Of a stretch of 64,000 bases of DNA, positions 34,426 to 50,445 are shown in pieces. Source of the DNA: Clostridia bacterium (lineage in GTDB: Bacteria; Bacillota; Clostridia; Oscillospirales; Acutalibacteraceae). The position numbers and the translations under genes are program-made. The notes below the pieces were generated by a model that made no database searches, was not told where the DNA came from, and was given only the letters and a program-made list of their open reading frames with translations. Location: the NCBI GenBank assembly GCA_017516485.1, contig JAFXCH010000013.1:59195-123194 (forward strand), in the 5' to 3' direction. Every line of letters starts with the position of its first letter. The stretch's first letter is position 1.

Positions 34426-35076
34426 ATGAGCAAGCGGTTTGAAACGGTGATTTTTGATTTTGACGGCACTATTGCCGACACATTCAGGGGTGTAAGGCAT
34501 TGTTTTCTTGAAGCACTTCACGCTTTCGGATACGATGAGACCGACGAAGCCAAGCTCCACACCTACCTCGGTCCTCCGCTTTTCGACAGCTTTATGCTCT
34601 ACTGTCACGATGAAGAAACCGCACGGCAGATGGTTGCAAAATACCGCGAGGTTTACCGTGCAGGTGCAATGCTTCAGTGCGACTTGTATGACGGTATAGC
34701 CGATGTGTTTGCTCAGCTTGATGCGGCAGGAATTAAAATGGCAATTGCTTCTTCAAAACCGGGCGAGTTTGTAAAACGGCTGTTGGGTCATTTCGGCATA
34801 GAACAATTTTTCGATTTTATAAGTGCACCCGTTATCGGCAAGCCGGAGCCTACCAAGTACGACCTTATCACTGCCGCCGTGTCAGCACTCGGTGCGGATT
34901 TCTCGTCTGCCGCAATGGTGGGCGACAGAAAATTTGATATTGAGGGTGCAAAGCAGGCAGGCGTTTTTGCCGTTGGTGTGTCCTATGGCTTCGGCACTGT
35001 TGCCGAGCTTGAATCGCAAGGTGCAGACTGTATATGCGATACTCCAAAACAAATTTCGGAGCTGATATTACAATGA
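34426..35076 (+). CDS. HAD-superfamily phosphatase, phosphoglycolate-phosphatase-like
   Basis: A 216-residue HAD hydrolase of the Gph/PpaX type. Motif I is VIFDFDGTIADT with the nucleophile Asp, motif II IASSK, the conserved Lys in GKPEPTKYD, and motif IV VGDRKFDIEGAKQAG. A helical cap at about residues 20-85 is typical. These enzymes remove phosphate from small phosphorylated metabolites; the precise substrate is open. A TATAAT-like hexamer lies about 70 bp upstream without a good -35. The stop overlaps the start of a small membrane protein gene. Confidence 0.87.
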   Translation: MSKRFETVIFDFDGTIADTFRGVRHCFLEALHAFGYDETDEAKLHTYLGPPLFDSFMLYCHDEETARQMVAKYREVYRAGAMLQCDLYDGIADVFAQLDAAGIKMAIASSKPGEFVKRLLGHFGIEQFFDFISAPVIGKPEPTKYDLITAAVSALGADFSSAAMVGDRKFDIEGAKQAGVFAVGVSYGFGTVAELESQGADCICDTPKQISELILQ

Positions 35077-36690: not shown

Positions 36691-37857
36691 ATGAAAGAAG
36701 TAATTTTGATTAAAAACGGTGAGCTTGCCCTCAAGGGTCTCAACCGCCGCACATTTGAAGATATAATGATTAAAAATATGCGCCGTAAACTTTCAGACCT
36801 CGGCACATTTACCTTCACACCTGCACAGTCAACTATCAAGGTTGAGGGTGAGGACGGTGCTGACCTTGAAGAGGCAGTTGACCGCCTTTCACGCGTTTTC
36901 GGTATAGCAGGTTTCTCACGTGCACTCAAGCTCGATAAGGATTTTGACCTTGTGCTTGAGCAGACAGGCAAGTATCTTGAAGAGCAGCTTCTCTGTGCTT
37001 CAACCTTTAAGGTTTGTGCAAAGCGCTCCGATAAAAAATTCCCTTACGATTCACCGAAGATTTGTCTTCTTCTCGGCGAAAGACTTCTTGACGAATATCC
37101 TCACCTTACGGTTGACGTGCGTAACCCCGAGCTTACCGTCACCGTTGAGGTCAGAGATAACGATATATTTGTACACGCAAACCAGCTCAAGGGTGCAGGC
37201 GGTATGCCCGTAGGCTCTGCAGGCAGAGCGGCACTTATGGTGTCCGGCGGTATTGACAGCCCTGTTGCAGGCTGGATGATGGCAAAACGCGGTATTGAGC
37301 TGACTGCAATTCACTTTGCTTCACCACCCTATACGAGTGAGAGAGCAGAGCAGAAAGTGCACGACCTGCTCGGCAAGGTTGCACGCTATGCAGGCAGAAT
37401 TGAGCTTAGCGTTGTGCCGTTTACCGAGTTTCAGGAGGCAATCCGTGACAAGTGTCCCGAGGACCTCTTTACAATTATTATGCGCCGTATGATGGTACTT
37501 TGTGCACAGCGTATCGCATCTCACACAGGTTGCGGTGCACTTATTACGGGTGAGAGCCTCGGTCAGGTTGCAAGCCAGACTCTCGGTGCGATTGCGTGTA
37601 CTGATGAGGCGGCAACAATGCCCGTTTTCCGCCCTCTTATCGGTATGGATAAGGACGAAATCATTTCAATTTCAAGGAAGATTGATACATTTGAAATTTC
37701 AATTCTTCCGTTCGAGGATTGCTGTACGGTCTTTACTCCCCGTCATCCCCGTACACGTCCCAAGCTGCCCGATGTAATCGAGGCAGAGTCAAGGCTTGAT
37801 GTTGATGCGCTCGTTGAACGTGCGGTCGCAGGTACAAGAAAAATTATTATTAATTAA
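36691..37857 (+). CDS. thiI: tRNA 4-thiouridine synthase
   Basis: A 388-residue sulfurtransferase that adenylates U8 of tRNA and adds sulphur. The N-terminal ferredoxin-like and THUMP domains include LIKNGELALKGLNRRTFE. The PP-loop ATP site is MVSGGIDSPVAGWMM (about residues 183-197). ITGESLGQVASQTL and a C-terminal CCTVFTPRHPRTRP follow. As usual in Firmicutes it lacks the rhodanese domain and relies on a partner cysteine desulfurase, here encoded directly upstream. Confidence 0.95.
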   Translation: MKEVILIKNGELALKGLNRRTFEDIMIKNMRRKLSDLGTFTFTPAQSTIKVEGEDGADLEEAVDRLSRVFGIAGFSRALKLDKDFDLVLEQTGKYLEEQLLCASTFKVCAKRSDKKFPYDSPKICLLLGERLLDEYPHLTVDVRNPELTVTVEVRDNDIFVHANQLKGAGGMPVGSAGRAALMVSGGIDSPVAGWMMAKRGIELTAIHFASPPYTSERAEQKVHDLLGKVARYAGRIELSVVPFTEFQEAIRDKCPEDLFTIIMRRMMVLCAQRIASHTGCGALITGESLGQVASQTLGAIACTDEAATMPVFRPLIGMDKDEIISISRKIDTFEISILPFEDCCTVFTPRHPRTRPKLPDVIEAESRLDVDALVERAVAGTRKIIIN

Positions 37858-37875: not shown

Positions 37876-39123
37876 ATGAATTGTGAGATTATCGGAGTCG
37901 GCACAGAGTTGCTGCTTGGTGACATTGTAAATACAGATGCTCAGTATCTCGCCCGGGAGCTTGCCGCTATGGGCATAGTTATCCATTATCAAGAGGTAGT
38001 GGGTGATAATCCCGAGCGTATGAGGGCGTGTATCTCAAACGCTGTTTCACGCAGTGACCTTGTAATTCTTACGGGCGGCCTCGGTCCTACGGCAGACGAC
38101 CTTACCAAGGAAATCAGCTGTGAGGTAATGGGTGCCGAGCTTGTGCTTGATGAAGATATTCTTGAAGGAATAAGGAGCTATTTCAGCTCAAAGGGCATAG
38201 TGATGCCCGAAAGTAATGCAAAGCAAGCTTACGTGCCAAAGGGCGGTACGGTTTTTGCGAACCGCAACGGTACTGCACCCGGCTGTGCTGTTGAAAAAGA
38301 CGGCAAGACCGTCATTATGCTGCCCGGTCCGCCAAGAGAGCTCAAGGTGATGTTTGAGTATGAGGTCAAGCCCTACCTTGCTCAAAAGACCGGTGGTGTA
38401 ATCCTCTCAAAGCAGGTGCGCACCTTTGGTATAGGTGAGTCCGATATGGCTCAGCGTGTAGCTGATTTGCTCGACGGTGAAAACCCCACCGTTGCACCCT
38501 ACGCCAAAGACGGTGAGGCTTTGCTGAGAGTTACCGCAAGGGCTGAAACCAAAGAAAAAGCAGAGCAGATGTGCGATGAAACAATAGAAAAAATACGCGA
38601 AAAAATAGGCGGATATATTTATTCAACGGATTCGCTGAATCTCGAGCAGACAGTTGTGAAGCTGCTTCGGGAAAAAGGCAAAAAAATCGCCCTTGCAGAA
38701 AGCTGTACGGGCGGATACATTGCAAAACGCATCACCGATGTGCCCGGCTCATCGGAGGTTTTTGAGTACGGAATCGTGTCCTACTCAAATGAAGTTAAAA
38801 TGAAACTGCTCGGCGTTAAAAGTGAAACGATAGAGCAATTTACAGAGGTAAGCGAGCAGACTGCTGCTGAAATGGCAGAGGGTGTCCGTAAGCTGTCGGG
38901 TGCCGATATCGGTATCAGTGTTACGGGCATTTCAGGTCCGGGCGGAGGCACCGAGGATAAGCCCGTTGGTCTGGCTTATATAGGCTTTTCTCATTCAGGC
39001 GGCACTTATGTGCACGAGGTCAGGACGGGCAGAAGCCTTGATTCGAGAGAATATAACAGATATGTTACGGCATCAAATGCCCTGCATATGGTCATACAGC
39101 ATTTTTATGAAAGGGACGAGTAA
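37876..39123 (+). CDS. cinA: CinA: competence/damage-inducible protein, NMN amidohydrolase
   Basis: A 415-residue protein with both CinA domains. The N-terminal molybdopterin-binding-like (COG1058) domain shows EIIGVGTELLLGDIVNTDA, LTGGLGPTADDLT and a VIMLPGPPREL block, and has pyrophosphatase activity in homologues. The C-terminal domain contains AESCTGGYIAKRITDVPG and SVTGISGPGGGTEDKP, the nicotinamide-mononucleotide deamidase signature. It is intact and shares a neighbourhood with an unusual sortase and a protein whose N-terminus is a degenerate CinA, which suggests local duplication. It follows thiI after 18 bp. Confidence 0.95.
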   Translation: MNCEIIGVGTELLLGDIVNTDAQYLARELAAMGIVIHYQEVVGDNPERMRACISNAVSRSDLVILTGGLGPTADDLTKEISCEVMGAELVLDEDILEGIRSYFSSKGIVMPESNAKQAYVPKGGTVFANRNGTAPGCAVEKDGKTVIMLPGPPRELKVMFEYEVKPYLAQKTGGVILSKQVRTFGIGESDMAQRVADLLDGENPTVAPYAKDGEALLRVTARAETKEKAEQMCDETIEKIREKIGGYIYSTDSLNLEQTVVKLLREKGKKIALAESCTGGYIAKRITDVPGSSEVFEYGIVSYSNEVKMKLLGVKSETIEQFTEVSEQTAAEMAEGVRKLSGADIGISVTGISGPGGGTEDKPVGLAYIGFSHSGGTYVHEVRTGRSLDSREYNRYVTASNALHMVIQHFYERDE

Positions 39124-39128
39124 TCTCA

Positions 39129-41033
39129 ATGGCAGAAGAAAACAACGTATTCGGTCAGTTTGGCACAAGAAGCGCCAAGTTTGACGAGCTGCTAAAGAAA
39201 TATCAGACTATAGATGAGGGCGATACCGTAGCTTCTCCGAAGCCGATTGTTCCTCAACCCGAATCTGTCGAAGAGCCGCAGGAAGAGATAGTTCCAGAAC
39301 CTGCAGAAGAACCGCAGGAAGAGGTAATTCCAGAACCTGCCGAAGAACCGCAGGAAGAGATAATTCCCGAACCTGCAGAAGAACCGCAGGAAGAGGTAAT
39401 TCCAGAACCTGCCGAAGAACCGCAGGAAGAGGAAATTCCCGAACCTGCAGAAGAACCGCAGGAAGAGGAAATTCCCGAGCCTGCAGAAGAACCGCAAGAG
39501 GAAGAAATTTCCGAGCCTGAAGAACCCGGTTTTTCGTATGACATCGATATATTCAGTGCAAACGGTGTAAGCTCTACAGCCGACATTGACAGCTTTGACG
39601 ATTCTTGGATTGACAGCGCTCTGGATGATTCACTGTTTTACAGACCTGTTCCTATGCCGGAGACAGAACCGGAATACAAGTACGAAGAAGATGCGGAAGA
39701 CGAGCCTGCACCCGAAGAGACGGAATCTGTTCCCGTAACCGAGTATGAGCAGGAATATTATACTGACGACCCCGTACAGTACGACCCCGAAGTTTTTGTC
39801 GATCCGATACAGCCCGAGCCTGAAAAAGATGTTATGGCAGGCGGATATATTGCTCCGTCCGATTTCGGCAATTTTGAGTTTGATCCCGAAAGCGGTATGG
39901 ATTTTGATGTTGATGAAGATGAAAATGAGCCTGAGCCCGAAGTTGAACACAAGGCGATAAAGTCAAAGAAAAAGATCACCCGTGAGAAAAAGGACAGTGG
40001 CAAAAATGAGATGTCCTCCGTAACGGGTTTTTCGAAGAATTATAAGGCTTCGGAAGGAAAAGGCTCGAAAAAAGACGGCTTTTTTGTACGCAACTTTATA
40101 CCCAAAAGCAGTGATACGGGTCTGGAAAAGGCAAGAAAAATCATAATGATTGTCTGTGTTCTGACCTTTGTCTTTGCCGCTGTTTATCTGTTCAGCGATT
40201 TTGTTATTCAGCCTTTTATTACGGCAAACCGCCTTGAAAAGCTTGAGTCTATGGTGGGCAAAAGTAACGAAGTTGCAGATGCACAAGAGCTTGCCGAAAA
40301 ATATCCCGATGTTGAGTTTCCCGATGGTATGCTTGGAAAATATGCCGAGCTTTATGCAAAAAATTCCGACCTTGCAGGATGGATAAACATTGAAGCGCTT
40401 GATATTTCTCTGCCTGTTGTTCAGGGCGAGGATAATAAGGAATATCTTAAGGTTGATTTCGACGGCAACCGTAATAAGTACGGCTCCGTTTTTGCCAACA
40501 GTGAAAACGATATGAAAAATCTCAACTACAATACCGTGTTGTTCGGTCATCATATGCTTGATTCCAAGATGTTCGGTAACCTTACCCTTTACAAGGATGT
40601 TGAGAATTACAAAAAGGCACCCGTAATTGAGTTCAACACCATTTACGGTGATTACAAGTGGAAGATTTTTGCAGTGTTTATCACAAACGGCACGGCTGAA
40701 GGTGACGACGGTTATATATTCGATTATACATTTACCGACCTTTCTTCACCCGAAGCTGTTGAGAGATTCCTCGGTGAAATTGACCAGCGTGCAATTTACA
40801 AGCCTGAGGTTGATATATCCGTTTCTGATAAGATTCTGACGCTTTCCACCTGCTCTTATGAGTTTGATGAGGCACGCCTTGTCGTTATGGCACGTATGGT
40901 GCGTCCGGGAGAAAGCGAAGAAGTCAGCGGGGTAGTCAGAGTGAATGACAACCCGAGGTATCCTGCAGCATATTACGAAGAAAAAGGACTTACAAATCCT
41001 TATGAATCGGCTTACAAATGGCAACCGACATAA
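39129..41033 (+). CDS. Class B sortase with long acidic-repeat cytoplasmic tail
   Basis: A 634-residue membrane-bound transpeptidase. Residues 1-335 are cytoplasmic and highly acidic, with seven 12-residue repeats (EEPQEEVIPEPA type) at 48-131 and then Asp/Glu/Tyr-rich sequence. One membrane segment lies at about 337-360. The sortase B domain follows: LAGWINIEALDISLPVVQG, His474 in FGHHMLDSKMFG, Cys575 in LSTCSYE and Arg583. Ordinary SrtB proteins have only a short cytoplasmic end and total about 220-300 residues. Class B sortases anchor proteins or assemble pili, and no substrate with a clear sorting signal is visible in the window. It lies 5 bp after cinA and 44 bp before the CinA-SpoIID chimera. 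Confidence 0.9.
   Translation: MAEENNVFGQFGTRSAKFDELLKKYQTIDEGDTVASPKPIVPQPESVEEPQEEIVPEPAEEPQEEVIPEPAEEPQEEIIPEPAEEPQEEVIPEPAEEPQEEEIPEPAEEPQEEEIPEPAEEPQEEEISEPEEPGFSYDIDIFSANGVSSTADIDSFDDSWIDSALDDSLFYRPVPMPETEPEYKYEEDAEDEPAPEETESVPVTEYEQEYYTDDPVQYDPEVFVDPIQPEPEKDVMAGGYIAPSDFGNFEFDPESGMDFDVDEDENEPEPEVEHKAIKSKKKITREKKDSGKNEMSSVTGFSKNYKASEGKGSKKDGFFVRNFIPKSSDTGLEKARKIIMIVCVLTFVFAAVYLFSDFVIQPFITANRLEKLESMVGKSNEVADAQELAEKYPDVEFPDGMLGKYAELYAKNSDLAGWINIEALDISLPVVQGEDNKEYLKVDFDGNRNKYGSVFANSENDMKNLNYNTVLFGHHMLDSKMFGNLTLYKDVENYKKAPVIEFNTIYGDYKWKIFAVFITNGTAEGDDGYIFDYTFTDLSSPEAVERFLGEIDQRAIYKPEVDISVSDKILTLSTCSYEFDEARLVVMARMVRPGESEEVSGVVRVNDNPRYPAAYYEEKGLTNPYESAYKWQPT
39270..39521 (+). repeat. Seven 36-bp tandem repeats inside the sortase gene
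   Basis: Each unit encodes 12 residues of EEPQEExIPEPA type. Adjacent units alternate at several positions in the first part, giving a 72-bp higher-order period, and then become uniform. Such tracts can change copy number by slippage or recombination without shifting the frame. Confidence 0.9.
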
Positions 41034-41077: not shown

Positions 41078-43417
41078 ATGAACATCAGTTTTATTGCACT
41101 GAATACAAGCGGTGTGGAAGCAGCGCAGTCTGCGGCGGATAAAATTCGCGGCTCTTTATCGAGCCTCGGCAGATGTGATTTCAGACTTTGCGGCTCTATG
41201 CAGCAGGTTTCCGCAGCTCTTTCCGATGCGTTTGCAAACAGTGATATAGTAGCAGTCGGTGCTGAGCCATCGGTATATTCGAAGGCTAAGCTTGCCATAC
41301 TGCGTGCAATGCATATCAAAACTGCACTCAACAGCACTGTCAGAGAGAGCATAAAAGACGAATCCGCTCTTGATGCCCAGCAGCTTTCCTCTCACTGTGC
41401 TATGCCTGAAAATGCACGGGTATTTCTCTCGGATGACGGACTTTTTTCGGGTTTTGCTATCCGCTCGGGTAAGCAGCATTTTGTTATGCTGCCGTTGGAT
41501 GACAGCAGAATCGACAGCCAGCTGGACGGCGGTATGTTGCCGTATTTTGCCGAGGCAGGTGTTTTGGTCGGACAAAAAACGCAGGGTGAAGCTGAAGGTG
41601 CAGTGAATGACAGCTGTGCTGCAAAGGCTGTCGAAATGCTCAAAGAGAAAAAAATCAAGGTGTATTTTGCTGCAACGCCTTCCTGCGAAATGGTTAAGGA
41701 TATGTGCGGTGAGGATGTAATCAAGGATGAGTTTATCTTTACCGAGTATACATCCGACCGTGGAGATGAAGCTCCCCGCAGTTACATAGCTGACCTTGCC
41801 CGTTACTCAATTCCCGACGATGCAGAGGGCTTCGGTGCGGCTGTGTCTAACGTTTATACAGGTACTTCACAGGAAACGGGCAATCAGAAGTATAATATCT
41901 ATGTTGCGCTTGCCGATAAAAATGCTTCACGCGTGCTTCGCTTTGCTTCTCAGCCGGGCGAAACACCCGATGAGCTTATTTCTGCATCGATTGAGCTGCT
42001 GATGGATATGATTTGCGAGAAGTGCAAAACAGTAAATGCACCCGTGTCCGATTCTGATGAGGACAAGCCTTTCACTGCAGGTCCCGTTGAAGAAATCGAA
42101 ATGCCTACACCGCAGGAAACACGCAAAAAGAAGTGGAGAGCCCTGCGTACGGTTATTTATGTTTTACTTGCAATCATACTTGCATTTGTAGGATATTTTG
42201 CGTTCAACGGATATAACAACGCAGAAGAAAATAAAGAAGCTGCAGAGCATAGCTTTGCAAGCTATTATTCACAGGGAGCCGCCGTAGAAAACGGCTCTCT
42301 TCTTGTTTTTAACGATGATTTTTCAGAAGAGTACAGTGAAGAATTCTCAGCAACGGAGGATTTTACAACTGCTTTGAGTGAACCCGAATCAAGCACATCG
42401 GATGAAACCGAAACTCTGCTTGGTGCACTGACAACTGTTGCAACAACTGTACATTCAACAGCTGAAAAAACAACTAAGCCGAACGCTACGACTAAACCGA
42501 ATACTACGGCAAAGCCTGTAACAACAGCCAAACCGACTACCACTGCAAAGCCGACTACAACAGCCAAGCCGATTACTACGGCAAAGCCTTCGGGTAACTC
42601 AAAAGCAGACGGCAAATTCGTTTTCACTGTTTACGGCTACGGTCACGGTGTAGGTATGAGTCAGGAGGGTGCTATCGGCTACTCAAAAAGCGGCAGCTCC
42701 TATACCAACATTCTGCTCCATTATTATCCGGGTGTAACTCTTGTTAAGGATGACCCCGAAATGCCCGAAACGGTAAAATTCGGCAGCAAAGAATATTCGC
42801 TTATCGAGTATCTCTGCCGCAGTGTCGTTGGTGAAATCGGCTCCGGATGTAACAGCTCAACTGCAGAAGCATTCAAGGCTCAAGCGGTAGCGATTTATAC
42901 ATACGCAAAGCGCTATAAATTCAATATGGGTGCTTCTCATCACGCTTTCAATACCAGCTACAAGTATGAAGGTACTGCTGTTGAAACCGCAGTAAAGTCT
43001 GTGCTCGGTGAGTATCTTGTGCATAACGGCAAACCTATAATGGCAACATATTATGCTATGTCAGCGGGTAAAACTGTCAGGGCATCTACCGTATGGAGCG
43101 GCGATACACATCCGTATCTTGAGAAGGCAGTTGACAGTCCGCACGACAAAAAATGTAAAAACTATATAACGACCTATACAATCTCGGCAGAGGATTTCAA
43201 GGATTTGATGAAGGAAACTCTCGGTGTTGAGCTTAGCGGTGACCCGTCAAAATGGATAGTAATCGAAAAGCACGATTCTGCCGTTAGCTCATCTGTCGGT
43301 TATGTCGAGCGTATGACTGTGGGCGGTAAGCGTATAACAGGTGCTTATTTCCGCCAGAACGCAATGAAATATAAAATCAGGTCACACTGCTTCAGCGTGT
43401 CTTATGTGGAGGAATAA
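41078..43417 (+). CDS. Degenerate-CinA / SpoIID chimeric membrane protein
   Basis: A 779-residue type II membrane protein. Residues 1-350 are cytoplasmic and can be laid along CinA by eye: NISFIALNTSG with DKIRGSLSSLG and SDIVAVGAEPS, then AMPENARVFLSDDGLFSGF with HFVMLPLDD, EMLKEKKIKVYFAATPSCE, and IYVALADKNASRVLRF. Both CinA signatures are lost (GGLGPTxDD becomes GAEPSVYSK, ESCTGG becomes TPSCEM). A membrane span lies at about 357-378, then an acidic stretch and a TTAKP stalk (465-504). A SpoIID-type domain follows, with GYGHGVGMSQ around His523 and EAFKAQAVAIYTYA at about 597-610. SpoIID proteins are lytic transglycosylases or amidase activators acting on peptidoglycan. The role of the CinA-like half is unknown. 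Confidence 0.8.
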   Translation: MNISFIALNTSGVEAAQSAADKIRGSLSSLGRCDFRLCGSMQQVSAALSDAFANSDIVAVGAEPSVYSKAKLAILRAMHIKTALNSTVRESIKDESALDAQQLSSHCAMPENARVFLSDDGLFSGFAIRSGKQHFVMLPLDDSRIDSQLDGGMLPYFAEAGVLVGQKTQGEAEGAVNDSCAAKAVEMLKEKKIKVYFAATPSCEMVKDMCGEDVIKDEFIFTEYTSDRGDEAPRSYIADLARYSIPDDAEGFGAAVSNVYTGTSQETGNQKYNIYVALADKNASRVLRFASQPGETPDELISASIELLMDMICEKCKTVNAPVSDSDEDKPFTAGPVEEIEMPTPQETRKKKWRALRTVIYVLLAIILAFVGYFAFNGYNNAEENKEAAEHSFASYYSQGAAVENGSLLVFNDDFSEEYSEEFSATEDFTTALSEPESSTSDETETLLGALTTVATTVHSTAEKTTKPNATTKPNTTAKPVTTAKPTTTAKPTTTAKPITTAKPSGNSKADGKFVFTVYGYGHGVGMSQEGAIGYSKSGSSYTNILLHYYPGVTLVKDDPEMPETVKFGSKEYSLIEYLCRSVVGEIGSGCNSSTAEAFKAQAVAIYTYAKRYKFNMGASHHAFNTSYKYEGTAVETAVKSVLGEYLVHNGKPIMATYYAMSAGKTVRASTVWSGDTHPYLEKAVDSPHDKKCKNYITTYTISAEDFKDLMKETLGVELSGDPSKWIVIEKHDSAVSSSVGYVERMTVGGKRITGAYFRQNAMKYKIRSHCFSVSYVEE
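42470..42589 (+). repeat. TTAKP stalk repeats
   Basis: Forty codons encode seven variants of a 5- or 6-residue Thr-Thr-x-Lys-Pro unit just outside the membrane. They form an extended, possibly glycosylated stalk holding the SpoIID domain away from the membrane. Confidence 0.8.
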
Positions 43418-43420
43418 ATT

Positions 43421-45031
43421 ATGACTCAGATTAAAGTTGTTTCATCACTTGAAAAAATATTTCCGCAGTGCAACGGAGATTTTTATGAAATAAACATCCT
43501 TTCCATGCTTATAGGTGAGCGTGCGAGTTTTCAGCTTGCGATAAATACCGACGAGCCGCTTCGCTTTACGGTTGAAGGTGCGGATTCTGTTTGCGTTAAT
43601 TCGTATAATATAGGTTTTGTACCGTCAAAGTTACCTTACTATGAGGATCATGATGACGATATTATTACTTCGCCCGACGGTTATTATCCCGACGTGCTTT
43701 ACCCGACAGAAAACGGTGAGGTCGAATTTGTAAACGGCGGCTGGTGCTCTGTGTGGTTTGAGCTTGAGGCAAAAACGGCAGGGCTGAACAATATTGTTAT
43801 TACACTTTTTAACGAAGATAATGACGAGGTCGGTAAGGCTGAAATCTGCGTTAAAGTTATAAATGCAGTTTTACCCGAGCAGGAACTTATACACACAAAC
43901 TGGTTTCACTGCGACTGCCTTGCAACATGGTATAATGTTGATGCCTTCAGTGATGAGCACTGGCAGATAATTGAAAACTTTATGCGTGTCGGTAATGCTC
44001 ACGGCCTTAATATGATTCTTACACCGCTCTTTACGCCTCCGCTTGATACTGAGGTAGGCGGTGAAAGACCGACTATGCAGCTTGTTGATGTCACCGTAAC
44101 AGGTAAGGATGAGTATGCTTTCGGTTTTGATAAGCTTGATCGCTGGATTGAAATCGCAACAAGAAGCGGTATGAAGTGGTTTGAGCTTTCGCATCTCTTT
44201 ACACAGTGGGGAGCAAAGCACGCACCCAAAATTGTTGATGTAAACGGCAAAAAGCTTTTTGGATGGAAAACTGCGGCAGGCGGCAAAAAGTACAAGGTGT
44301 TTTTGACACAGTTTGCGACAGCACTTGATGAATTCCTTGCTGCAAAAGGTGTAAAAGATAAGTGCTGGCTTCACGTTTCGGATGAGCCTAACGATATGCA
44401 GGTGCGTCCTTATGCAAAGGCAAGCAGACTCATTTCAACACTTTTCCCCGATTATAAGACACTCGACGCACTCAGCGATTTTAAGTTCTACAAAAAAGGT
44501 CTTGTCAAAACTCCTGTGCCTTCACTTGATCATGCACATATATTCTACGGTAAGGTGCCGAATTTCTGGACTTATTACTGCTGCGGTCAGTATAAGGGTA
44601 CGTCAAATCGCTTTATGGCTATGCCGTCATACAGAACGAGAGTACTCGGCCTGCAGCTTTATAAATTCGGCTGTGTCGGATTCCTGCAGTGGGGCTTCAA
44701 TTTCTGGTATTCCCAGTATTCAAAGCGCCATATAAATCCGTTTGAGATAACGGATGCAGGTGAAGCATTCCCCTCAGGCGATGCGTTTGTAGTCTATCCG
44801 GGTGAAGGCGGTCAGCCGCTTGTGTCACTCAGGTATAAAGTGTTTTACGACGCATTCCAGGATTTGAGTGCACTCAAACTCCTCGAAAGCAAAATTGGTT
44901 ACGAAAAAACACTTGAGATTATAGAGAATAAGTCCGGTGAGCCTCTCAGCTTCGTAAATTATGAGCGCGGTATAGATGTAATGCTCGCGAAGCGTGAAGC
45001 GGTAAATAAAGCGATAGAAGAAAACCTTTGA
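43421..45031 (+). CDS. DUF4091-containing glycosidase-like protein
   Basis: A 536-residue protein without signal peptide. After an N-terminal beta-sandwich (residues 1-150) comes a TIM-barrel-like part with LIHTNWFHCDCLATWYNV and NMILTPLFTPPLD, then CWLHVSDEPNDMQ, in which the acidic pair sits where a catalytic Glu/Asp would be expected, and FLQWGFNFWYSQ near the end. This is the DUF4091 pattern, considered glycoside-hydrolase-like although few members are characterised. It begins 3 bp after the chimera stop with GTGGAGG as ribosome site, so it shares that transcript. The substrate is unknown. Confidence 0.8.
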   Translation: MTQIKVVSSLEKIFPQCNGDFYEINILSMLIGERASFQLAINTDEPLRFTVEGADSVCVNSYNIGFVPSKLPYYEDHDDDIITSPDGYYPDVLYPTENGEVEFVNGGWCSVWFELEAKTAGLNNIVITLFNEDNDEVGKAEICVKVINAVLPEQELIHTNWFHCDCLATWYNVDAFSDEHWQIIENFMRVGNAHGLNMILTPLFTPPLDTEVGGERPTMQLVDVTVTGKDEYAFGFDKLDRWIEIATRSGMKWFELSHLFTQWGAKHAPKIVDVNGKKLFGWKTAAGGKKYKVFLTQFATALDEFLAAKGVKDKCWLHVSDEPNDMQVRPYAKASRLISTLFPDYKTLDALSDFKFYKKGLVKTPVPSLDHAHIFYGKVPNFWTYYCCGQYKGTSNRFMAMPSYRTRVLGLQLYKFGCVGFLQWGFNFWYSQYSKRHINPFEITDAGEAFPSGDAFVVYPGEGGQPLVSLRYKVFYDAFQDLSALKLLESKIGYEKTLEIIENKSGEPLSFVNYERGIDVMLAKREAVNKAIEENL

Positions 45032-46913: not shown

Positions 46914-47735
46914 TTGGATTTTGAATTTGTATTCGATTTTATTGAAAGCTCAAGCCGCTATCTGCTTGCAGGGCTTGCATTGCTGATTATCGGCAGCTGT
47001 GTTTTTTCACTTGTAACAAGGCACTTCGGCTCAAGGGTCGGCTCCTACCTTGTAGAAACAAAAACCAACAAAAAGATTCCGCTTACCCGTTGGGAAAACT
47101 CAATCGGCCGCAGTCCTACCTGCGATGTTATACTTACAAATGCAACCGTCTCACGTTTCCACGCCGTAATTTCAAAGCGGCGTACGGGCTGGGTTGTTGC
47201 CGATACAGGCTCACGTACGGGTGTTTTTGTCGGCGGTGAAAAAATAGGCAAGCCGGTCAAACTCAATCACGGCGATAAGATTTCTTTCGGCACTGCAAGG
47301 TACGAGTTTTTTGATGTCGATGTTGATGACCTGGAGCGTGAAAAAGAGAGGGCACGTATGAGGCAGGCGAGAGCTGCCGCACGCTCTCCGATGCGTGTGC
47401 CTACGCGTGCCGGTAATGATTCTGTCGGATTTATGCCGGCGCTTATAGATGAAGCGTCAGAAAAAGCTTATGTACTCGGTTGCGACAGCTGTATTGTAGG
47501 TCGTTCTCCCGAGTGCGATATCAAGCTCAGATATCCTACGGTTGCTTCAAAACATACAAAAATTTATAAAATCGGTAATTCCTGGTTTATCGAAGATCTC
47601 GGCTCTACAACAGGTACCAAGCTCAATGCACGCACTGTGTCTGCAGGCAGACGCAGGCTGAAAAGCGGCGATATAATCAGCCTTGGCGGTGCAATATTTG
47701 TGTTTAATGAGCGGTATAAAATCCGCAGAAAATAA
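46914..47735 (+). CDS. Membrane protein with two FHA domains
   Basis: A 273-residue protein starting at TTG after GAAGGAGG. One membrane segment (about residues 15-34) places the rest in the cytoplasm. FHA domain 1 (about 60-130) has SIGRSPTCDVILTN and TVSRFHAVI; FHA domain 2 (about 190-265) has IVGRSPECDIKL, VASKHTKIY and GSTTGTKLN. Both keep the Arg, Ser, His and Asn/Thr positions used to bind phosphothreonine. It is the first gene of a cell-wall operon. In Actinobacteria FHA proteins beside RodA and PbpA dock Ser/Thr-kinase-phosphorylated partners; a similar scaffolding role is inferred, although no kinase gene is here. Confidence 0.88.
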   Translation: MDFEFVFDFIESSSRYLLAGLALLIIGSCVFSLVTRHFGSRVGSYLVETKTNKKIPLTRWENSIGRSPTCDVILTNATVSRFHAVISKRRTGWVVADTGSRTGVFVGGEKIGKPVKLNHGDKISFGTARYEFFDVDVDDLEREKERARMRQARAAARSPMRVPTRAGNDSVGFMPALIDEASEKAYVLGCDSCIVGRSPECDIKLRYPTVASKHTKIYKIGNSWFIEDLGSTTGTKLNARTVSAGRRRLKSGDIISLGGAIFVFNERYKIRRK

Positions 47736-47768
47736 TCGGACATAAAAAACTTACGGGAGGTGAAACGC

Positions 47769-49082
47769 TTGGCAACAAACGGCAACGGACAAAGAAGACA
47801 ATCGCAGACAGATTTGATGCAGCAGGCTGCTTCAAAGTCTCAATCTTCGAAACCTAAACGACATTTTCGTTGGATGACCATGCTTCTTTTTGCAACAATG
47901 TTTCAGCTGATTTCGATGATGCCCGTAATGGTTAATGCAGAGGAGTCTGAGTTGGAAATTGCTACCGTTTTCGGTGGGTTCATTCTTGTTGAATGGCTTT
48001 ATTTTATATGTGCACGTGCTTTTGCAAAGCAGCGCGCAACCGAGCTGGAAATAATAGCTTTTACGCTTTCGGGTGTAGGTCTGGTTACTGTTGCAAGCGT
48101 TAATCCCGATTATGCCCTCAAGCAGTTTGTGGCAATTCTTATAGGTCTTGCAGCATTTATTATCCTGCTTGCGATAATGCGTAATGTTGAGGTTATATCT
48201 GCGCTTCGTATACCTGTTGCCGTTGCGGCTGTAGGTTTACTTGGTGTCAACCTCGTTATGGCAGAAACGGTCAACGGTGCACTTAACTGGATAACTTTAG
48301 GTTCGTTTTCAATTCAGCCGTCGGAGCTTGTTAAGGTTGCGTTTATTTTTGTCGGTGCAGCTACGCTCGAAAAGCTGCAGTCTACACAAAGCCTTACGCG
48401 CTACCTGATATTCTCACTCGGCTGTGTAGGTGCACTTTTCCTTATGAGGGATTTCGGTACTGCACTGATATTCTTCTCAACATTCCTTGTTATTGCTTTT
48501 ATGCGCTCGGGCGATATCAAGACAATCGGTCTTATCAGCGTTGCGGCTGTGCTTGGTGCAGGTCTTATAATTTATTTTAAGCCCTATGTTGCATCGCGTT
48601 TTGAAGCATACCGACATGTATGGGAGTATGCAAGCGAAGGCGGATATCAGCAGACAAGAGTGCTCAGCTACTCTGCGAGCGGCGGATTTTTTGGTCTGGG
48701 AATAGGTAATGGCAGACTCAGAAACGTTTTTGCTTCTACAACTGACCTTATATTCGGCGTTGTTTGTGAGGAGTGGGGTCTGGTTGTCGGTTTCTGCGTT
48801 ATTCTTTGCTTCGCTTTTGTTGCGGTTTACGCTCTCAGGCTTGCTCGCCACGCACGCTCAACGGTTTACTCAATTGCGGCTGTGGCATCTGCGGCACTTC
48901 TGCTTGTGCAGTTGAGTCTTAACGTTTTCGGCGTTACGGATTTGCTTCCGCTTACGGGTGTTACACTTCCCTTTGTAAGCCGCGGCGGTACGAGCATGAT
49001 TTGCTCGTGGGCACTGTTTGCGTTTATCAAAAGCTCCGATATCAAAACGTATCCCATACTTGAAAAACAAATGGATGAATAA
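47769..49082 (+). CDS. FtsW/RodA/SpoVE-family peptidoglycan polymerase
   Basis: A 437-residue SEDS glycosyltransferase polymerising lipid II. The TTG at 47769 has GGGAGG at good spacing; a GTG at 47760 overlaps that site. About ten membrane segments follow a basic cytoplasmic tail. Conserved SEDS elements are GALNWITLGSFSIQPSELVK, LMRDFGTALIFF, the YQQTRVL region, GIGNGRLRN and TLPFVSRGGTS. It is followed by a class B PBP gene, the usual SEDS partner. Whether it serves elongation, division or sporulation cannot be decided from sequence alone. Confidence 0.92.
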   Translation: MATNGNGQRRQSQTDLMQQAASKSQSSKPKRHFRWMTMLLFATMFQLISMMPVMVNAEESELEIATVFGGFILVEWLYFICARAFAKQRATELEIIAFTLSGVGLVTVASVNPDYALKQFVAILIGLAAFIILLAIMRNVEVISALRIPVAVAAVGLLGVNLVMAETVNGALNWITLGSFSIQPSELVKVAFIFVGAATLEKLQSTQSLTRYLIFSLGCVGALFLMRDFGTALIFFSTFLVIAFMRSGDIKTIGLISVAAVLGAGLIIYFKPYVASRFEAYRHVWEYASEGGYQQTRVLSYSASGGFFGLGIGNGRLRNVFASTTDLIFGVVCEEWGLVVGFCVILCFAFVAVYALRLARHARSTVYSIAAVASAALLLVQLSLNVFGVTDLLPLTGVTLPFVSRGGTSMICSWALFAFIKSSDIKTYPILEKQMDE

Positions 49083-49098
49083 GAAAGGAAGGTGACTT

Positions 49099-50445
49099 AT
49101 GAATACGGTAACAAAACGAGCCTATGTGTTGCTTGCGATAATACTTGCTTTTATTGCAGGTGTTTCTGTACTCGGTGCTGAGTTTGCACTCAAGGGTGAA
49201 ACCTGGGCGACAAGCCGTGTCAACGGTCATCTTTACTCCGGTAATGAAGTGAAAATTGCGGGCAAGATTCTTGACCGCAACGGTGTGGTGCTTGCTGAAA
49301 CCGAAGGCAGCAAAAGAGTTTTCAACTCCGATAAAACAGTGCGTATGGCTACGCTTCATACTGTCGGTGATACCTACGGTTATATTTCCTCCGGTGCACA
49401 TACCGTTTGCCGTGATATGCTTACGGGTTACAGCTTTGTCGACGGAATTTATACGCTTATCAATACCGGTGAGGGTAAGGATATCAGCCTTACGATTGAT
49501 GCCAACCTTTGTGCCGAAGCTTACAATGCACTCGGTGGAAAAAAAGGCGCAATCGGAGTTTATAACTACAAGACGGGCGAAATAGTATGTATGGTTTCCG
49601 CGCCTACCTACGACCCTGAAAACAAGCCTGCAGATATGGACTCAAAGGATGAGTATGAGGCAGTTTATATGAACCGTTTTCTCAACGGACTTTTTACTCC
49701 CGGCTCAACCTTTAAAACGGTTACCACTGTTGCCGCAATTGAAAATCTGTCCGATATACAAAACCGCGAATTTAACTGTACGGGTGAACTCGGTACAGCG
49801 CAGGGCGGCAAAATTATATGCAACAAAACTCACGGCAAAATAGACTTCGGCACAGCATTTACAAAATCGTGCAACAGTGCCTATGCTGAAATGGGTATTG
49901 CCATGGGTGCTGATACCCTCGAGTCAACAGCTTCTTCAATCGGGTTTGGCAGAAGTTTCAATGTAAGCGGTGTAAATACGGCGAAGAGTCGCTTCAGCCT
50001 TGACGGTGCAGTCGAAATCGATATCGGTTGGGCATCGATAGGTCAGTATACGACTCTTATAAATCCGCTTCATCTTATGATGGTTGCGGGCAGTGTCGCT
50101 TCCGACGGCTCAACTCCCGTGCCTTACTTTGTTGTTGATAAAAAAAGAGAAGAGGTAACCGAGCAGCTTATAAAGAAGTCCACTGCTTCACAAGTCAGGA
50201 CGATGATGAGAAATAACGTTATAAATAATTACGGCGATGCCCTTTTCCCCGATATGAGCTTTGGCGGTAAGACGGGTACTGCACAGGTTGCAGGCGAAGC
50301 TTCACACGCTTGGTTTATGGGCTTTAGCGGAGATGAAAATTTCCCGTATGCAATAGTGGTGCTTGTTGAAAACGGCGGCGGAGGAAGCGATGTAGCCGTG
50401 CCGATTGCAAGCAAAGTTATGAAAGAACTCAAAAATTCTCTTTAA
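49099..50445 (+). CDS. Class B penicillin-binding protein (PbpA-like)
   Basis: A 448-residue transpeptidase with an N-terminal membrane anchor (about residues 8-30) and a short pedestal containing KILDRNGVVLAE. The penicillin-binding domain has all three motifs: S203TFK, S257CN and K391TG. The size is close to actinobacterial PbpA rather than the larger PBP2 or FtsI proteins. It cross-links peptidoglycan made by the adjacent SEDS protein. It begins 16 bp after that gene with AAAGGAAGGTG upstream. Confidence 0.92.
   Translation: MNTVTKRAYVLLAIILAFIAGVSVLGAEFALKGETWATSRVNGHLYSGNEVKIAGKILDRNGVVLAETEGSKRVFNSDKTVRMATLHTVGDTYGYISSGAHTVCRDMLTGYSFVDGIYTLINTGEGKDISLTIDANLCAEAYNALGGKKGAIGVYNYKTGEIVCMVSAPTYDPENKPADMDSKDEYEAVYMNRFLNGLFTPGSTFKTVTTVAAIENLSDIQNREFNCTGELGTAQGGKIICNKTHGKIDFGTAFTKSCNSAYAEMGIAMGADTLESTASSIGFGRSFNVSGVNTAKSRFSLDGAVEIDIGWASIGQYTTLINPLHLMMVAGSVASDGSTPVPYFVVDKKREEVTEQLIKKSTASQVRTMMRNNVINNYGDALFPDMSFGGKTGTAQVAGEASHAWFMGFSGDENFPYAIVVLVENGGGGSDVAVPIASKVMKELKNSL

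Follow-up and report, generated by a model that had tools for sequence, protein, structure and literature searches.

Within a 64,000-nucleotide stretch of the genome of a gut bacterium of the family Acutalibacteraceae (contig JAFXCH010000013.1, positions 59,195 to 123,194, forward strand), hereafter the window, one gene encodes a protein in which a CinA deprived of both its catalytic sites is joined, through a transmembrane (TM) helix and a linker, to a SpoIID domain. Our tentative reading, drawn from sequence comparison, is that this fusion is a membrane-held pseudoenzyme adaptor which may set a lytic transglycosylase-like domain beside the CinA and the sortase encoded just upstream. The fusion protein, of 779 amino acids (aa), comprises the following parts:

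41078..43417, plus strand: whole fusion of dead CinA, TM helix, linker and SpoIID, 779 aa (open reading frame (ORF) list and domain matches)
41078..41557, plus strand: degenerate MoCF/COG1058 half, residues 1-160 (family hhalign; key residues lost)
41612..42040, plus strand: degenerate PncC half, residues 179-321 (family hhalign; Y, K and R of the nicotinamide mononucleotide (NMN) site lost, T350 changed to S)
42149..42205, plus strand: TM helix, residues 358-376 (hydropathy scan)
42470..42592, plus strand: Thr/Pro/Lys-rich part of the linker, residues 465-505 (sequence)
42614..42751, plus strand: GHGVGMSQ block of SpoIID, residues 513-558, ahead of the core (circular permutation)
42776..43402, plus strand: SpoIID core, residues 567-775, with catalytic-type Glu586 (TIGR02669 match of the protein)

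Taken alone, the window protein matches no Pfam family in its first 361 residues at E ≤1 and scores under every Pfam and NCBIfam CinA cut-off, with a trace of NF002291 at E 0.046; against a CinA hidden Markov model it reaches E 8.4e-8 (set of 7 proteins). A profile of 50 dead-CinA members, gathered as phmmer matches to the N half in the fetched loci with the window protein included and CinAs excluded, aligns colinearly with 37 CinAs of the same loci (hhalign 99.6%, E 2.7e-24; residues 39-320 vs. 44-414), the one large gap spanning KH and the sequence around it. Taken separately, both halves match their CinA counterparts (MoCF 98.9%, 2.1e-17; PncC 98.2%, 3.2e-14) and the controls (KH, sortase, crossed halves and CinA halves in reversed order of letters) stay at or below 4%, so that the resemblance goes beyond chance. 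The same profile also picks up the true CinAs encoded at these loci (best E 2e-24) and, through its C half, stand-alone PncC proteins. In a larger alignment of 52 members (A1), NF001813 is matched individually by 28 at E ≤0.1 (best 4.2e-6), the window member not being among them, and the best natural match of A1 in the PDB is a solved CinA, 6mr3 (6.2e-6). The top PDB match, the designed repeat protein 6xr1, sums weak repeats and was treated as an artefact, as were four other designed proteins listed.

A reading of the sequence alone had proposed CinA ancestry for both halves, and the profile-profile comparison it suggested returned CinA rather than no hit. Its placing of blocks agrees with the profile alignment for SDIVAVGAEPS (at GGLGPT), AMPENARVFLSDDGLFSGF and HFVMLPLDD (at the NGTAPG and LPGPP blocks), VYFAATPSCE (at AESCTGG) and IYVALADK (at GLAYIGF). 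The start, NISFIALNTSG, was placed only by a joint MAFFT alignment, since the profile alignment begins at residue 39. The protein does not follow a whole CinA, as had been supposed: the KH domain (about residues 172-252 of CinA) is absent between the two halves of the window protein. A remnant of KH was found only in L165 among the dead CinAs examined (KH model E 0.0077); this protein of 523 aa carries it between the halves, matches the CinA model at 2.8e-15 overall (both in the set of 7 proteins) and is a possible halfway form between CinA and dead CinA.

In CinA of Thermus thermophilus, E12, D45, D76 and E156 serve Mg/ADP-ribose, E187 lies in the GIGES loop of KH, and Y296, K301, T314, T340 and R377 belong to the NMN site, according to the available part of PMC4246079. 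By conservation and spacing, a pairing of our own, we matched E11, D44, D75, E155, Y303, K308, T350 and R391 of the window CinA to Thermus residues, and added S276 of the AESCTGG block; the window CinA keeps all nine. Among 50 dead members D75 and E155 are never kept and D44 is kept in 7; Y303 survives in 1/49, R391 in 0/48 and S276 in 4/48, the K308 position falls in a gap, and that of T350 holds S in 32/49 and T in 15/49. With a half defined as dead when at most one key catalytic residue remains in it, all 72 MoCF halves and all 70 scored PncC halves are dead, as the sequence-only reading had claimed for both signatures.

The dead family has acquired a motif set of its own, consisting of K71, P110, DGLYSGF (120-126), PLDxxR (139-144), A241, G253 and E295. 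Fourteen columns are conserved in at least 75% of the 50 dead members, ten of them in the MoCF half, and eight of the fourteen (D120, G121, L122, S124, G125, F126, P139 and L140) occupy the positions of the NGTAPG and LPGPPxE loops. One possible explanation, put forward in the sequence-only reading, is that the former pocket binds a nucleotide (ADP-ribose, NMN) or another metabolite and would signal across the membrane to SpoIID. The position of the conserved columns fits such a sensor, although it does not demonstrate one; the NGTAPG loop, we assume, also lines the CinA site, and K71 is kept in 68/70 dead CinAs. In the second loop, the E corresponds by our pairing to Glu156 of Thermus CinA, which touches the ribose (PMC4246079, available part). 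Against a sensor stand the residue losses given above and the absence of KH, which closes the site in Thermus CinA; moreover, one helix followed by a linker of about 135 residues would be a poor allosteric route, and we consider this explanation unlikely. That the loops were rebuilt into another enzyme around K71, D120, D141 and R144 is improbable: charged residues are indeed conserved in the former pocket region, but D141 (44/70) and R144 (47/70) are less constant than most active sites.

The dead-CinA domain occurs in 70 of 300 genomes of the family and 29 of 135 genera (E 1e-25). Searching the 300 genomes returned matches along the whole length in the genus and in a few more genera, besides many that were partial; the metagenome-assembled genome RGIG1745 from goat caecum (L034), of the same genus, encodes a protein 76% identical to that of the window. 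At class level, the A1 profile has matches in 193/291 genomes at E 1e-3, and the 19 loci opened there (L107-L125) hold true CinAs; the window N half alone gives 10 matches in 295 genomes of the order, 5 of them CinAs of other families. Between the window and L034, nonsynonymous (dN) and synonymous (dS) divergence are 0.132 and 0.995 for the dead domain, and 0.046 and 0.675 for the true CinA. These values show purifying selection on the dead domain, weaker than that on CinA. The failure of the single protein to pass any Pfam or NCBIfam CinA cut-off might suggest that it is no CinA at all, or a decaying pseudogene; given the matches of both halves with clean controls, the spread over the family and a dN far below dS, this is extremely improbable.

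In a tree of 77 rows, the 25 dead copies form one clade (Shimodaira-Hasegawa-like approximate likelihood ratio 100), whose stem measures about 3 changes per column; a second clade (98) is made up of 17 CinAs taken from dead-CinA loci. Small groups recur in both halves of the tree (the window with L047 and L049, L053 and L090 with L076, L054 with L055), a pattern consistent with the pair having descended vertically. The single dead clade indicates one old event and not recent copying of the cinA that lies in the window. Local duplication, as proposed in the sequence-only reading, is a plausible origin of the dead CinA; by the approximately unbiased (AU) test, joining the dead clade to the 17 module CinAs (p-AU 0.917) and to 8 class-level CinAs (p-AU 0.884) is about equally accepted; the two constrained trees scored 37.2 and 33.5 log units higher, respectively, than the quick tree built without constraint.

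The SpoIID domain (residues 513-775) lies across a single TM helix from the dead CinA; the sequence-only reading had placed it outside the cell. The stretch TRKKKWRALR (348-357) before the helix argues, by the positive-inside rule, that the N-terminus is probably inside the cell. The protein matches TIGR02669 in two stretches (119.4 bits, cut-off 83.3) and PF08486 at 23.7 (cut-off 23), and stays under the threshold of TIGR02870, the equivalog model for stage II sporulation protein D (105.9 vs. 234.75 bits). The canonical order of the domain is not found: GHGVGMSQ (residue 522) precedes Glu586 and the EAFKAQA core (597), whereas another SpoIID of the same genome (L001) has the GHGVGMSQ block last. 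This circular permutation is present in 41/45 copies fused to dead CinA or lying in its locus, four having the canonical order, and in 0/23 of the sortase-fused copies. Loci L062, L064, L069 and L090 are noted beside window 42614-43402 in connection with the permutation, and in L174 a permuted SpoIID (331 aa) stands alone. Glu586 was paired by motif, on our own judgement, with E101, the catalytic-type Glu of Clostridioides difficile SpoIID, whose zinc site is described as particular to that species (PMC6221140, available part). A Glu of this catalytic type is kept in 73 of 76 core matches, suggesting that the domain may act as a lytic transglycosylase.

The fusion gene is part of a plus-strand row of five genes separated by 3 to 44 bases, a spacing that suggests a single operon. 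Besides the fusion, the row comprises:

36691-37857, plus strand: thiI, first gene of the row
37876..39123, plus strand: intact-looking CinA (MoCF/COG1058, KH and PncC), 415 aa (NF001813 509.6 bits, cut-off 379)
39129..41033, plus strand: class B sortase, 634 aa (TIGR03064 162 bits, cut-off 153.75; active-site His, Cys and Arg all kept)
43421-45031, plus strand: GH123 glycosidase gene, last of the row

The true cinA thus lies two genes upstream of the fusion, where the sequence-only reading had put it, with the sortase gene between. The sortase consists of an acidic region of PAEEPQEE-type repeats, a hydrophobic helix (judged by eye) and the sortase domain; the repeats open the gene (39129-39590), and opposite-strand ORFs at 39192-39586 resemble mirrors of the repeats and not genes. 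No match to the LPXTG model lies inside the row, class B sortases possibly using other signals, and the single match over the cut-off in the genome (17.4 bits, E 0.02) says little about sortase substrates because all 14 control genomes also match. Apart from the module's sortase, the genome has a single PF04203 sortase match (G000:C24:21754-22754; L298, L296), which directly follows a weak LPXTG-like frame (E 0.15); unlike it, the sortase of the module has no LPXTG-like neighbour in the row.

The surroundings of dead CinA were fetched in all 70 genomes, yielding 72 dead genes. The typical order is CinA or PncC, then one or more class B sortases, then dead CinA with or without SpoIID. A same-strand sortase gene is upstream of dead CinA at 69/70 loci, and CinA/PncC as well at 61/70; among the other nine, five reach a contig end. 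The CinA of the row is full-length in 32 loci, PncC alone in 28 and cut by a contig end in one (L077), and the 61 retain the residues of the NMN site, as SYKTR in 54 and SYKSR in 6, 1 being cut by a contig end. SpoIID is fused to 29 of the 72 dead genes; a separate SpoIID gene comes next in 16, a dead CinA-SpoIID copy in 2, and no SpoIID lies within 1.5 kb downstream in 25, two of which have less sequence than that. These counts allow overlapping genes and set tandem copies apart; otherwise 15 would be separate and 28 without SpoIID. Two loci (L056:8353-12239 and L057:8513-12387) hold tandem pairs of dead CinAs, of which one member carries SpoIID and the other does not.

A membrane helix follows the dead domain in 62/72 genes, comprising 29/29 fused, 24/25 without SpoIID, 7/16 with a separate SpoIID gene and 2/2 tandem copies. 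It is conceivable, if unlikely, that the dead domain merely holds the wall domain in place, as a stop on the cytoplasmic side or an anchor by oligomerisation. The domain is modular, as seen in the 24 copies with a helix and without SpoIID within 1.5 kb and in the 9 copies without a helix that stand before a separate SpoIID gene. Such passive placement is at odds with the conserved DGLYSGF and PLDxxR motifs, the one-clade origin and the nearly unbroken gene row, all of which speak for a specific role.

The same parts are joined in other ways in relatives. At 16 fetched loci a chain of CinA and sortase is paired with a second protein consisting of sortase and SpoIID, and in five of these partners (L102, L217, L221, L225 and L227) a remnant of MoCF (13 to 45 bits) stands in front. 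Single chains of CinA and sortase were found in L102:10918-13755, L103:3174-6095, L215, L217-L229, L235, L236, L239-L242 and L247, and most of them keep the key residues of both domains. CinA, sortase and SpoIID are united in one chain in L230:5100-8576, L231 (1209 aa) and L232:4754-8233; of these, L230 and L232 have a dead sortase, and L231 and L232 have altered MoCF sites. In L088 a dead sortase is joined to a degenerate CinA that includes KH. The catalytic His is lost in 21/23 sortases that share a chain with SpoIID, which is not an unbiased rate, since L215-L234 were selected for likeness to the dead sortase-SpoIID protein of L103; the other sortases keep His and Cys in 145/157, some of the remaining 12 being cut by contig ends. 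The paired CinA-sortase and dead sortase-SpoIID proteins look like an active subunit with a dead paralogous partner that would carry the cutting domain.

The adaptor reading would work as follows. On the cytoplasmic side the dead CinA domain would dock, its likeliest partner being either the CinA/PncC encoded in its operon or the cytoplasmic tail of the sortase, as we infer from the gene row and from the parallel pairs of active and dead proteins. Docking would place the lytic transglycosylase-like domain beside the sortase at the wall, where it might open glycan strands at the site at which the sortase attaches its protein. In favour of this speak the sortase upstream at nearly every locus and the CinA/PncC, with its NMN-site residues, at most, the physical joining of these parts elsewhere (as CinA-sortase, as dead sortase-SpoIID and as the triple chain), the loss of the catalytic His in most sortases that share a chain with SpoIID, and the combination of a kept SpoIID Glu, purifying selection on the dead domain and a membrane helix in most genes.

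Several observations weigh against it. The best-conserved columns lie at the former pocket loops, which is not predicted for a pure docking domain. Four dead-CinA loci (L059, L078, L079 and L163) are without CinA/PncC within 5.9 to 7.9 kb upstream, and the 25 dead genes without nearby SpoIID indicate that the dead domain has a role without it. The rows of L243, L252 and L253 hold the three parts without a matched dead copy; the last two loci belong to a different family of the order, and there PncC, the sortases (two or four) and SpoIID are encoded separately. Among 41 sampled genomes of the family 37 have CinA/PncC, with a sortase fused or nearby in 26 (17/17 fetched earlier and 9/20) and none near in 11, two of which end close to CinA. 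Lastly, the loci with PncC alone still keep K71, P110 and P139 of the dead MoCF half, each in 27/28, so that contact between MoCF halves cannot be required, and their pairing as the sole docking mode is weakened. D141 and R144 are kept in 12/28 and 15/28 of these loci vs. 27/32 and 26/32 with full CinA, a difference that either coupling or descent may have left behind.

Outside the family no sortase match stood beside 20 CinAs of the order (L275-L294), chosen as stand-alone CinA frames, nor with the 19 class-level CinAs (L107-L125), whose flanks are short. Links of CinA and sortase do occur in other genomes of the order, fused or sortase-linked CinAs of other families having been fetched apart from L275-L294. 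A broader proposal, which we regard as possible, is that a cytosolic PncC/CinA of NAD salvage, a sortase and a SpoIID-type glycan cutter form one trans-envelope complex, which may have arisen repeatedly by fusion of the cutter to a dead copy of a partner (CinA in one branch, sortase in another), with the permuted SpoIID perhaps part of the refit.

Each of the parts is known, and the combination of dead CinA, SpoIID and sortase row is new to the literature searched. Like Thermus CinA, as described in the available part of PMC4246079, the window protein has a MoCF/COG1058 half followed by a PncC half in colinear profile match; it differs in the absence of KH, the loss of both catalytic sites, the membrane tether and the fusion to a wall domain. 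Escherichia coli YfaY and YdeJ are inactive CinA paralogues without NMN deamidase activity, and the YfaY lineage deletes the YxNxxK block (PMC3855486, available part). The dead family resembles these inactive CinA relatives in that the K of its YxNxxK block also falls in a gap; compared by description only, YfaY and YdeJ are presented in that part of the paper with no mention of a TM helix, a SpoIID fusion or a sortase row. The same source states that CinA domains are ‘occasionally fused with other domains’ and sets these aside. With the SpoIID of spore engulfment, a lytic transglycosylase (PMC6221140, available part), the window domain shares the SpoIID/LytB domain and a Glu at the catalytic position; unlike it, it is circularly permuted, falls under the TIGR02870 cut-off and is tied to CinA and sortase genes. 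The window sortase passes TIGR03064 with its active site kept, as in class B sortase systems, and is distinguished from them by its acidic N-terminal repeats and its linkage, or in relatives fusion, to CinA.

No paper on SpoIID with CinA, nor on circular permutation of SpoIID, was found in a literature search whose coverage largely excluded subscription papers and bioRxiv; within these bounds the earlier statement that no CinA-SpoIID fusion has been described holds. Papers listed for two or more of CinA, sortase and pncC reported no fusion, judged by title and the start of the abstract, those on sortase, SpoIID and fusion were unrelated by title, and among the papers listed in further searches nothing similar appeared; CinA-sortase single chains were likewise not described among the papers listed. 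As a whole the sequence-only reading is supported on ancestry, catalytic loss, fusion and lack of precedent in the papers searched, and missed the loss of KH, the sortase row, the sister architectures and the permutation of SpoIID.

Two other regions of the window deserve mention. Upstream of the row, 34426-35076 encodes a HAD-type phosphatase (named by eye) with similar frames in L046, L047 and L049; these show a weak match (E 3e-5 to 3e-3) to the dead-CinA profile over roughly residues 181-256, probably by a common strand pattern. Downstream, at 46914-50445, consecutive FHA-domain, FtsW/RodA-like and penicillin-binding-like genes follow (from translations only).

CinA is widespread, and its role beyond NAD salvage is still debated, with links to competence and drug tolerance. 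Its fusion to a sortase and to a domain of wall-cutting type, together with a conserved dead copy at the membrane, ties CinA physically to the cell envelope, and the fusion proteins offer material for testing this tie. Further gains are a family of pseudoenzymes at the membrane and a SpoIID domain circularly permuted by nature, and the fixed row with an intact-looking CinA and sortase hints at an undescribed machine of the envelope.

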